From contig CAJXMW010000002.1 in NCBI GenBank assembly GCA_913056235.1, positions 310,001 through 374,000 on the forward strand: a stretch of 64,000 bases of DNA. Direction: 5' to 3'. The stretch's first letter is position 1. Each line of letters begins with the position of its first letter. This stretch comes from an uncultured Fodinibius sp. Its GTDB lineage: Bacteria; Bacteroidota; Rhodothermia; Balneolales; Balneolaceae. The notes beneath the pieces are model-generated. The model searched no databases. It worked only from the letters and a program-made list of their open reading frames with translations, and was not told the origin of the DNA. The translations under genes and the position numbers were made by a program. Below, piece by piece: positions 40,410 through 43,692 of the stretch.

Positions 40410-40529
40410 ATATTCCGGCTAATTATATTCATAACAAAGATTTAACACCCTGAATTATTGAAAAAGAGAATAAAAATAAGTTAATTGAAAGAAACTGACA
40501 GGGATACCGCTTTAATAAAGTTCAGGCAT

Positions 40530-43454
40530 ATGGGCCAAAAGCTACCAAGGAGATTATTTTTATGTGTTTTCCTTCTCTGTTGCTTTCTCTTGGCAGGGGC
40601 CTTCCAGGCGTATAGCCAATCATCTTTGCAACCTGGAGATATCGTTATTACTGAATTTATGGCAAATCCATCAGTTACGGACGATTCCGATGGTGAATAC
40701 TTTGAATTGTACAACAGACGTGCACAAACAATAAATATTGATGGATTTACTATTTCTGATGATGGTTCTAACTCGCACGTAATTGATAACAGTGGAACTT
40801 TAGATATTCCTCCAGAAGATTTTATAGTGCTCGCAAGATCTGATAATCCAGCAGGTGATGGGTCAGTAATTCCAGATTATGTGTATAGTAGTTTAACATT
40901 GGGTAATTCTGAGGACGAAATTATTCTGACTGATGAGGAAGGTGAAGAAATAGCTCGTCTTAATTATACAAGCATTAGTGAAGGTGTTTCTTCTGAATTA
41001 AATGATATCAAAAATACAGATGCATCAGGCCAAACTTCAGAGGATGACTATGTTGATTCAAATACCTCTTTGGGTAGTGGTGGGGATAAAGGATCACCAG
41101 GTACTAATGGAAAGACTGTAACTTCTGAAAATCCCAAAGTTCGTTTTTTATATTCTGAGAATTCCGTTTCTGAGGCTATTGGTACTGGAGTAGTAACTGT
41201 CCTTTTACAAGACCCTGATGGCAATGAAGTTAATGTTGATGTAGTATTTGAATCTAATGGTAGCACTGCTACTGCGGATGATTTTACTTCAAGTTCACCT
41301 GTTACCTTGACTTTTGAGGCAGATGCTAGCGATGGAGCTCAACAAAAAGTGTATACTCCAGATAATGATAATAAGTTTGAGAATACTGAAAAAGCAGTAT
41401 TCAGTTTGACTAACCTAAGTACCACCGGTGGTGTATCCATCTCTTCTCCAAGTATAACGACTGTGACTCTAACTGATGATGAGACGCCAAATATATTCAT
41501 TAATGAAATCCATGCGGATCCTGCTGACCAGGGGGGAGATGCTGATGGAAATGGCAGTCCTGATAGATATGATGATGAATTTGTTGAATTTGTCAATAGT
41601 AGTAATTCCGATATTGATATAAGTGGTTGGGAATTTTACGATGATGCTAACAATTCACCCACCTTACGACACAAATTTACTGAAGGCACTGTTGTACCTG
41701 CCGGAGGTGCCCTAGTTATTTTTGGAGATGATGGAGTTAGTCCTCAAGGAAATTTTGGAGGAGCGGTAGTACAGAGCTCCAATGAGTCGGCTTTATTGGG
41801 TTTAAATAATGGGGGAGATGATATTGAACTGAAAGATTCAGAAGGAAACACAATAGTTCAGCTTAGTTATGCTGCTGCAAATAACGATCAATCTATTGTA
41901 AGAAGTGGGGATGCAAGTGATGGTTCATTCACTAACCACTCTTCAGCAGATTCTGATGGGTCATTGTTTTCACCGGGCACCCAAATTGACGGCACTCCAT
42001 TTGGTTCAAAACACGCCATCGCTTTCCGTGGAATTGAAGGATGGCGAATGGCAGCTTCTCCGGTTCAAAGTGCAACATTTAGTGATCTTTTTGGATCACT
42101 TTGGACACAGGGCATGAGTAACTCTGATGATCCAGGAGGTGATTACACCATAGGAGCTTGGACTGAGTCATCGCACAGTTTTAATCCTATAGGCGATATG
42201 AACGACCCTGTGACGCCAGGCAAAGGTTACATTGTGTATGTATTTGAAGATGATCAGTACAGCACACCAGGTATACAGGGTGGATTTCCAAAAATTATTA
42301 GTTCAGATGGTACTGAAAATAGCAATGATATAAGTATACCAGTGAAAGCTTCCGACAGTAATGATAATGGCACATATGACAGTGATACCAATGAAGGTTA
42401 TAACTTGCTGGGAAATCCTTTTGATACAGACATCGTAGTTTCCCAGGTAATAACCGCACTTGAATCAGAAAATAGTAATGTTGATGCCAATGTTTACGTT
42501 TGGGATCATTCTGCTGGTAATGGAAATGGTGGATATGAAAGTTTATCTGGGACCGAAACCATCGCTCCTTTTCAGGCCTTTTTTGTTCGGTATGAGACTA
42601 TAGGCGTTGATGGTTCTGTTTTATTTAATAAAAACTCATTGGAAGCTAACAAAGGTGCTCAGTTTTATAAGAACAGTTCTGATGAGCCTATCTTTTTTAA
42701 TCTTGAGCTACACGGCGACGATTATTTTGACAGTTATTCGTTGGAGTTTAGTGACAATGGTACAACGGGTTTAGATCGCTACGATGCTTATAAACTTTTT
42801 TCATTGAATCCCAATTCTATAAATCTATTTAGCACCATTAATGAGACTCGTATGCAGAAAAATGTACTGCCCAAAGAACTAGAATCGAATCTCGAAATTC
42901 CACTCTCTTTTGATGCTTCGGGACGAACTTCTTTGACGTTTGAGTGGGACAACAAGATGGAAGATGTTCCCTCGGATTGGGAGTTGATGCTCATTGACAA
43001 GGAACAGAATCGGGAAATTGATCTTCGACGCAGTAAAGAGTACCAATTTACGGTTACAGGTTCTCAGCAGAGGTCGCAGTCTTCATCTGATCAAAATAAG
43101 CTGATGAACAAGGCGAATAATGTACAAGAGAATCGTTTTGCACTTTCAATAAAACCCAAGCAAAAGCTGGGGACCAACCCCGATATCCCAGAATCCGTAA
43201 AACTTAATCCCAATTATCCCAACCCGTTCAATCCCTCTACAACAATACCGTATGAGCTGAACGAAGACGCTGAAGTGAAACTCACCGTCTGGAATATGAT
43301 TGGGCAAAAGGTAGCCACGCTGGTTGACGGCTTGGTTGAGGCCGGATCGCATGAAGAAACCTGGAATGCCTCCGATATGCCGAGTGGTATTTATATTGCA
43401 CGATTCGAGGTAGGCAGCAAGGTCTTCACCCGGAAAATGACGCTCATTAAGTAA
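40530..43454 (+). CDS. Large lamin-tail-domain surface protein with type IX-style sorting tail
   Basis: 974 residues from the ATG at 40530, which places the signal peptide (RRLFLCVFLLCCFLLAGAFQAYS) at the N-terminus; a TTG 15 codons upstream is possible. Domains in order: a lamin-tail domain (~20-150, PGDIVITEFMANP), a Calx-beta-like domain (~185-310, ending SITTVTLTDDE), a second lamin-tail domain (~320-465, NIFINEIHADP, ISGWEFYDD), a less defined beta region (~500-860), and a Por-type sorting tail (~885-974, NPNYPNPFNPSTTIPYEL, SGIYIARFEVG, TRKMTLIK). Such proteins are secreted by T9SS and attached to the cell surface. The body is AT-rich; the last ~260 bases are visibly richer in GC. Substrate or partner unknown. 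Confidence 0.9.
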   Translation: MGQKLPRRLFLCVFLLCCFLLAGAFQAYSQSSLQPGDIVITEFMANPSVTDDSDGEYFELYNRRAQTINIDGFTISDDGSNSHVIDNSGTLDIPPEDFIVLARSDNPAGDGSVIPDYVYSSLTLGNSEDEIILTDEEGEEIARLNYTSISEGVSSELNDIKNTDASGQTSEDDYVDSNTSLGSGGDKGSPGTNGKTVTSENPKVRFLYSENSVSEAIGTGVVTVLLQDPDGNEVNVDVVFESNGSTATADDFTSSSPVTLTFEADASDGAQQKVYTPDNDNKFENTEKAVFSLTNLSTTGGVSISSPSITTVTLTDDETPNIFINEIHADPADQGGDADGNGSPDRYDDEFVEFVNSSNSDIDISGWEFYDDANNSPTLRHKFTEGTVVPAGGALVIFGDDGVSPQGNFGGAVVQSSNESALLGLNNGGDDIELKDSEGNTIVQLSYAAANNDQSIVRSGDASDGSFTNHSSADSDGSLFSPGTQIDGTPFGSKHAIAFRGIEGWRMAASPVQSATFSDLFGSLWTQGMSNSDDPGGDYTIGAWTESSHSFNPIGDMNDPVTPGKGYIVYVFEDDQYSTPGIQGGFPKIISSDGTENSNDISIPVKASDSNDNGTYDSDTNEGYNLLGNPFDTDIVVSQVITALESENSNVDANVYVWDHSAGNGNGGYESLSGTETIAPFQAFFVRYETIGVDGSVLFNKNSLEANKGAQFYKNSSDEPIFFNLELHGDDYFDSYSLEFSDNGTTGLDRYDAYKLFSLNPNSINLFSTINETRMQKNVLPKELESNLEIPLSFDASGRTSLTFEWDNKMEDVPSDWELMLIDKEQNREIDLRRSKEYQFTVTGSQQRSQSSSDQNKLMNKANNVQENRFALSIKPKQKLGTNPDIPESVKLNPNYPNPFNPSTTIPYELNEDAEVKLTVWNMIGQKVATLVDGLVEAGSHEETWNASDMPSGIYIARFEVGSKVFTRKMTLIK

Positions 43455-43470
43455 GCTATTAAATAACATT

Positions 43471-43692
43471 ATGCTAAATATCCTGTGCAGACATAAAAAA
43501 ACACTGCTGGTATCGCTCTCAATCTGTTTTATGATGATCGCCGGAGTGTTGATATTTCCTGATATTGCTGCCTCACAACCTCCGTTCCCAATGGATAATC
43601 CCGAGCAGTCGCCTATCGACGGTGGGCTAGGCATTTTGGCCGCTTTGGGTGGAACCTATGCCATTAAGAAATTGCGAGATAAAAAAGAGTGA
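43471..43692 (+). CDS. Small PID-CTERM-type protein
   Basis: 73 residues. An N-terminal signal or anchor (KTLLVSLSICFMMIAGVLIF) is followed by a short proline-rich spacer. The tail begins PIDGG, continues as a hydrophobic helix (LGILAALGGTYAI) and ends in KKLRDKKE. This tripartite tail (motif, helix, basic end) matches the PID-CTERM sorting signal described in Bacteroidota, thought to be handled by an exosortase-like protease. The mature part would be only ~20 residues, so the protein is little more than two sorting elements. It starts 16 bases after the lamin-tail protein, so the two are probably one transcript. No exosortase gene is visible in the window. Confidence 0.7.
   Translation: MLNILCRHKKTLLVSLSICFMMIAGVLIFPDIAASQPPFPMDNPEQSPIDGGLGILAALGGTYAIKKLRDKKE

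Follow-up and report, generated by a model that had tools for sequence, protein, structure and literature searches.

The window (the whole 64,000-nucleotide stretch that was analysed) carries on its forward strand a gene for a 73-residue protein, hereafter the mini-protein, directly behind the gene of a large protein with a type IX (T9SS) sorting tail, hereafter its partner. The features of this two-gene unit are as follows:

40485..43454, + strand: partner gene, 989 residues, with LTD and Calx-beta domains, a RemZ-like module and a T9SS type A tail; the first codon is TTG and the true start is uncertain
42006..43190, + strand: RemZ-like module of the partner, residues 508-902, common to 42 of 42 aligned partners; profile match to RemZ at E 1.1e-17
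43215..43439, + strand: T9SS type A sorting domain of the partner, residues 911-985; TIGR04183, 42.3 bits against a cut-off of 23, and PF18962, 36.9 against 27
43455..43470, + strand: intergenic gap of 16 nt from the stop codon of the partner to the mini-protein gene, by its sequence without a promoter-like site
43471..43692, + strand: PID_CTERM mini-protein, 73 residues, from the open reading frame and its translation; NF046080, 37.4 bits against a curated cut-off of 26
43471..43575, + strand: predicted signal peptide, residues 1-35, cut before Gln36, from hydropathy and a cut-site heuristic; predicted helix 2-34
43576..43611, + strand: proline-rich linker QPPFPMDNPEQS, residues 36-47, the predicted mature peptide; unstructured in the model, and constrained in relatives
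43612..43689, + strand: PIDGG motif, transmembrane-like helix and basic end, residues 48-73; PID_CTERM match over residues 48-71, predicted helix 52-72

The reading frame, coordinates, strand and length that the initial annotation gave for the mini-protein were exact, and its position 16 nt behind a gene with a T9SS sorting tail is borne out by both tail models. The C-terminal sequence, PIDGGLGILAALGGTYAIKKLRDKKE, is made of the PIDGG motif, a helix and the basic end KKLR, and by its match to the NCBIfam PID_CTERM model (residues 48-71 of 73) the gene product is a member of that family. At the N-terminus a hydrophobic core is followed by Ser and Gln at positions 35 and 36, where hydropathy and a cut-site heuristic, rather than a signal-peptide predictor, place the cut. 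An AlphaFold2 model contains two helices (2-34 and 52-72), an unstructured linker between them and no strands. Almost the whole mini-protein is targeting and sorting signal: 12 residues separate the predicted signal peptide from PIDGG, instead of the 20 or so first estimated. A spurious reading frame is ruled out by strong purifying selection in relatives and by wide conservation. We saw no promoter-like site in the 16 nt before the mini-protein gene, and because this gap is also short, one transcript for both genes is likely. The proposal that two sorting systems meet in one transcript thus stands as far as the gene unit is concerned, which is general beyond the window, the shared transcript being deduced from the gap.

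The window's genome (nine contigs, 98.4% complete) contains a single PID_CTERM match over the cut-off and no second mini-protein (the next matches, at 10.4 and 9.6 bits, fall far under 26), together with 12 T9SS type A tails. Their adjacency is not a matter of chance, since the only PID_CTERM gene neighbours one of just 12 tail genes here and the same holds for 114 of 127 genes in relatives (see below). The exosortase that such a tail called for was also found: the genome encodes a single one (PF09721, 41.6 bits against 25.7), which passes the cut-off for exosortase X, XrtX (NF046081, 188.5 bits against 170). In alignment with relatives it keeps the motifs DGCSG, NIVR and THDYS, whose Cys, Arg and His we take to be the catalytic residues. 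Of the T9SS side, six partial matches in this genome cover the C-terminal end of the PorU model NF033707, none over the cut-off of 420 bits, and in this lineage PorU may have diverged or be absent.

XrtX and PID_CTERM co-occur. An exosortase and a PID_CTERM match occur together in 42 of 92 family genomes; 8 have the exosortase only, 9 the match only and 33 neither. Only one of the nine PID-only genomes is over 90% complete; in the eight exosortase-only genomes, the enzyme is substituted in three, broken in one and intact-looking in four. In a sample of 296 genomes of the phylum, which overlaps the family sample (22 of its 51 PID genomes lie outside the family), PID_CTERM is present in 51 genomes (50 over the cut-off), and all 51 have a match to the XrtX model at E<=1e-5, a loose threshold that takes in related exosortases and is passed in 92 genomes. 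Conversely, PID_CTERM is present in 37 of the 38 genomes with XrtX over its cut-off. An intact-looking XrtX without a PID_CTERM match occurs in five genomes, the four of the family sample (G056, G057, G079 and G086) and G219 of the phylum sample; three of the five are fragmented or incomplete, and XrtX may have a different substrate in these genomes. In one further genome (G331), the gene adjoining XrtX matches the model of an XrtX-associated membrane protein below its cut-off (58.8 against 75 bits).

The dependence of the mini-protein on XrtX is best seen within the genus (12 genomes), where XrtX is intact in two genomes, carries catalytic substitutions in five and was not found in five. Fully canonical mini-proteins are present only in the two genomes with intact XrtX motifs, which are G000, the window's genome, and G002, a genome with six PID_CTERM matches. 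Where XrtX has lost its His, a mini-protein frame survives in G001 (His to Gln), where its linker is unusual, and in G011 (His to Pro), where the expected start lacks an in-frame ATG; in G010 (His to Ser) it is a decayed relic. Relics are also all that is left in G005 (Cys to Ser) and G006 (Cys to Gly, His to Gly); G007, which gave no XrtX match, has a weaker relic, and G003, G004, G008 and G009 have neither XrtX nor mini-protein. Measured against mononucleotide shuffles, the alignments of the four relics stand 6.5 to 11.6 standard deviations higher, and those of the four genomes without a relic -0.4 to 1.8, a comparison in which shared flanking sequence may raise the values of the genomes with relics. 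The PIDGG motif, expected from the start to be conserved, is so in relatives at large; within the genus, only 4 of the 12 genomes retain a PID_CTERM match. All 12 keep the large T9SS gene and, behind the two-gene unit, an aldo/keto reductase gene; in G003, G004, G008 and G009 only the C-terminal part of the T9SS gene matches. Thus, the mini-protein decays along with XrtX and the large T9SS protein does not; taken strictly, a canonical mini-protein is present in 2 of 2 genomes with an intact XrtX and in 0 of 10 with a substituted or missing one (p = 0.015, shared ancestry ignored). Since relatives without XrtX or mini-protein keep the large protein, the mini-protein would be an accessory. Of the three roles offered by the initial annotation (structural peptide, decoy or helper for surface attachment), a decoy is not favoured because substitution or loss of the exosortase goes with a changed, decayed or missing mini-protein, as expected of a real substrate. 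We conclude that the mini-protein is very probably a substrate of XrtX.

The two-gene unit recurs well beyond the window. We fetched 140 regions around PID matches and obtained 155 PID frames from 63 genomes, of which 150 have an upstream gene in the fetched region (five do not), 129 have it on the same strand and 127 are distinct. The nearest same-strand upstream gene matches TIGR04183 (E<=0.001) in 114 of the 127 distinct genes, although these pairs share ancestry and may in part be copies of one cassette, so that they do not amount to 114 independent events. By comparison, a home-made profile found a T9SS tail in 38 of 490 other genes of at least 200 residues in the fetched regions, and the number of tails per genome ranges from 7 to 122 in the 14 genomes counted. 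The PID matches of G033 and of G080-G088, that at G015:C10:184702 and contig-end matches in G059 and G065 were left out, and two fetched regions (L150 and L176) yielded no PID frame to our script. Some conserved mini-proteins do not stand beside a T9SS gene; examples lie behind metK (L180, L181, L189) or behind a class II fumarase gene (L151, L159). Identical or near-identical mini-proteins and T9SS ends are in some cases repeated within one genome.

A search of named genomes with the mini-protein alone as query (the module described below has no stretch conserved enough to seed such a scan) gave 34 loci, some from genomes already sampled. The nearest upstream gene has the module or the tail in 22 of these 34 loci, and one locus (L278) has such a gene on the other side. 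Outside the Balneolales the same is true of 10 of 17 loci, in records of Bacteroidales, Chitinophagaceae, Bacteroidia and Bacteroidetes, the remaining seven giving no module or tail match upstream. The home-made profile detected the tail in only 1 of these 10; of the others among these 10, eight were scanned with NCBIfam TIGR04183, which is over its cut-off in 6, just under it in L300, and gave no match in L291. The exosortase gene itself joins the pair in three loci: the order is T9SS gene (tail over the cut-off), mini-protein and exosortase in L166 and L215, and module gene, mini-protein and exosortase in L301. The exosortases of L301 (168.5 bits) and L166 (133.9 bits) fall under the XrtX cut-off of 170, and that of L215 is nearer to XrtY, also under the cut-off of that model. 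The pairing is seen in both gene orders, and a pairing limited to the window is ruled out by its recurrence in relatives and distant families. We consider the pairing of mini-protein and T9SS gene, and the co-dependence of the mini-protein on XrtX, to be well supported. A limited search of the open-licence literature found no published description of the pairing, nor papers on PID-CTERM or on an exosortase in Balneol- taxa; the PID_CTERM and XrtX families are already known, and the absence of a description of the pairing is a weak statement.

What the paired T9SS proteins share is a module. A set of 42 partners, picked by script (at most two per genome, with a residue limit and 'NP' required near the C-terminus), align over about 390 residues ahead of the T9SS tail, while their N-terminal domains are variable (LTD, laminin G, FG-GAP, fn3, RCC1). 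Apart from the tail, no Pfam family is common to more than 18 of the 42, and 22 modules matched none of the NCBIfam models. In PDB sequences, the window's partner alone has no match at E<=0.01, whereas a profile of 22 modules (the window's first) finds RemZ of Flavobacterium johnsoniae over residues 701-1051 of 1114. The partners' module is thus homologous to the region of RemZ that precedes its tail, and only the tail is well resolved in the RemZ structure. An AlphaFold2 model of the module is mostly beta (pTM 0.79); with it, Foldseek returned nothing at E<=0.001, and a second aligner gave middling similarities (best Z 5.5 over 87 residues).

The module is present in 106 of the 108 T9SS genes that lie immediately upstream of mini-proteins, by a profile for which 42 of these 108 had supplied the sequences. 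It is present in 21 of 49 other T9SS genes of the same loci, several of which flank a mini-protein on its other side. Pooled counts in the genus, read by eye and given no weight, have a mini-protein with 8 of 16 module genes against 0 of 33 other T9SS genes. The module is not sufficient for a mini-protein, because three other module-bearing T9SS genes of the window's genome lack one. On contig C3 of this genome (L306:1915-17619), other module-bearing T9SS genes form a cluster, one of them with Invasin_D3 and Big_1 domains and none with a mini-protein.

The part of the mini-protein that would remain after processing is also under selection. Among 98 mini-proteins of the family, a lenient heuristic places Gln after the hydrophobic core in all 98, and the residue before it is Ala, Ser or Gly in 96. 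Between this Gln and the motif, the linker has a median length of 11 residues (exactly 11 in 55 of the 98) and measures 11-16 in most family relatives, that of the window having 12. In 18 independent sequence pairs of relatives, dN/dS is about 0.25 in the signal peptide, 0.11 in the linker and 0.03 in the tail. From the linker length and these ratios, we would expect a mature peptide that is short, constrained and rich in proline. Exported proteins of Bacteroidetes usually carry an N-terminal Gln, which cyclises, and the accessible part of the source limits this Q-rule to Bacteroidetes (PMC5837995). NCBI places Balneolota outside Bacteroidota, and for that reason an N-terminal pyroglutamate on the mature peptide is only a possibility. 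A role of the peptide as the amine acceptor (nucleophile) for PorU is not favoured: the N-terminal Gln may cyclise and Lys is found in only 22 of 98 family linkers.

We propose that the mini-protein would be exported by Sec and cut by signal peptidase I before Gln36, its C-terminal helix holding it in the inner membrane. XrtX, we infer, would then cut at the PIDGG motif and move the 12-residue proline-rich peptide to a lipid or sugar acceptor. At the envelope, the RemZ-like module (about 390 residues) of the co-encoded T9SS protein would dock on, or be retained by, the peptide-tagged acceptor, whose role would be accessory. Attachment helper is, tentatively, our leading reading, ahead of structural peptide and decoy. 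The steps of this scheme do not stand on equal footing. That the mini-protein is a functional partner of the neighbouring T9SS protein we consider probable on balance, and this is argued from linkage and the shared module. Anchoring and binding are what we infer beyond that: an anchored peptide acting as a docking partner is a tentative proposal, to which we give a little less than even weight. The boldest form, in which XrtX and T9SS make up one two-track display system and the RemZ-like module next door has as its dedicated docking ligand the peptide that XrtX places on a sugar or lipid of the envelope, we regard as somewhat unlikely.

The alternative that survives best, itself fairly unlikely in our opinion, is that the mini-protein yields a general XrtX product (an envelope peptide-lipid or peptide-glycan) with no specific dealings with its T9SS neighbour, the linkage arising from the copying of a 3' cassette (module, tail and mini-protein) and from a single surface or matrix regulon. 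The repetition of mini-proteins and T9SS ends within one genome, the mini-proteins behind metK and fumarase genes, the XrtX genes beside nucleotide-sugar genes in G012 and G038 and the persistence of the large gene without mini-protein and XrtX would all sit well with such a product. It has more difficulty with a pairing that recurs in Balneolales, Bacteroidales, Chitinophagaceae and other records, in both gene orders, and with a same module in nearly all of the T9SS genes upstream of mini-proteins.

The second alternative takes its inspiration from type B T9SS cargo, for which a SprF-like shuttle is encoded directly downstream and needed for secretion, as described in the accessible part of PMC12618676; an excerpt of another study suggests that the SprF/PorP-like shuttle anchors type B cargo (PMC9143113). 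By analogy, the mini-protein could be a periplasmic, membrane-tethered export helper that acts before or without processing, and keeps hold of the module-bearing cargo, or sets its timing, as it travels to the T9SS translocon. The gene order follows this precedent, with the mini-protein 16 nt behind the cargo stop codon in the window, and the predicted shape of two helices around an unstructured linker also speaks for it. We nevertheless judge this helper unlikely: it leaves unexplained both the decay of the mini-protein where XrtX has lost catalytic residues and the tail as the most constrained part of the protein, and the cargo gene is retained without it. As a comparison, the SprF/PorP system is the nearest precedent for the arrangement itself, a surface protein gene followed directly by its own partner gene. 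It differs in that the tail of the cargo is here of type A, and that the partner is a 73-residue exosortase substrate with two predicted helices and no strands, and not the outer-membrane beta barrel by which a SprF/PorP-like shuttle is recognised. In a third alternative, XrtX and signal peptidase would set free the short proline-rich peptide, whose N-terminus might be a pyroglutamate, and the peptide would leave the cell as a secreted product or a signal. A short constrained linker would suit this reading, as would a Gln after the predicted cut in every family mini-protein under the lenient heuristic (compare the Q-rule in the accessible part of PMC5837995), but it is very unlikely, as the substrates of exosortase-like enzymes seem to stay attached to the cell surface according to an excerpt of PMC11980579.

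Returning to the anchored peptide, the known system closest to the one proposed here is PID_CTERM/exosortase X itself (NF046080, NF046081, NF046082): both mini-protein and exosortase pass the cut-offs and the Cys, Arg and His motifs are in place, while the names of these models are silent on a pairing with T9SS cargo, a RemZ-like module or a bare peptide product of 11-16 residues. The PEP-CTERM/EpsH and archaeosortase systems share with it the tripartite C-terminal signal (motif, helix and basic tail) and a multi-pass enzyme of one superfamily, as far as the accessible parts of PMC11980579 and PMC7468200 describe them. PEP-CTERM/EpsH systems also have neighbouring polysaccharide genes, as some relatives do here. 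The usual substrates of PEP-CTERM and archaeosortase systems are proteins with a sizeable exported domain; in contrast, the mini-protein is almost all signal, and the protein encoded next to it is exported by another machine.

The sugar genes deserve a separate comment. In 2 of the 17 XrtX neighbourhoods fetched, those of G012 (L253:9943-14642) and G038 (L255:9951-14520), XrtX is part of a gene run encoding nucleotide-sugar dehydrogenase, oxidoreductase, acyltransferase and aminotransferase functions, a setting that hints at a sugar as the acceptor of the XrtX product. This run presumably resembles the Wbp set of the T9SS linking-sugar (Wbp/Vim) pathway; only its dehydrogenases passed a curated cut-off, that of a general subfamily model, so the pathway is a candidate. 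Exosortases near VimA-related and sugar genes are discussed in the accessible part of PMC7468200.

If the pairing is functional, XrtX gains both a candidate substrate and a candidate partner protein with a defined module. The substrates of Bacteroidota exosortases appear to be an open question: mutants in xrtF and in a neighbouring gene are affected in surface colonisation and biofilm, and the accessible part of that study leaves the substrates to future work (PMC10936215). The scheme, if true, would describe an exosortase system that yields a bare peptide and not a sorted protein domain, and would link two envelope-sorting systems that are usually studied apart. The data suggest that two protein-sorting systems work as partners.

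Some PID frames depart from the simple organisation seen in the window. Tandem mini-proteins, two for a single upstream T9SS gene, are found at L096:5006-5454 and L164:5054-5482. The protein at L172:5015-7936 (G235), counted among the 155 PID frames even though it is not a mini-protein, has 973 residues with hydrophobic stretches and a PID-like tail, PIDGE, and is unlike the mini-proteins. Finally, an in-frame N-terminal extension precedes eight mini-proteins (L081, L087, L113, L114, L117, L118, L123 and L179, in G012, G015, G031, G032, G035 and G040), with no stop codon between the two; its CxxC...CxxC pattern is like that of a small zinc ribbon, and it may represent either a distinct start site further upstream or a domain fused to the mini-protein.
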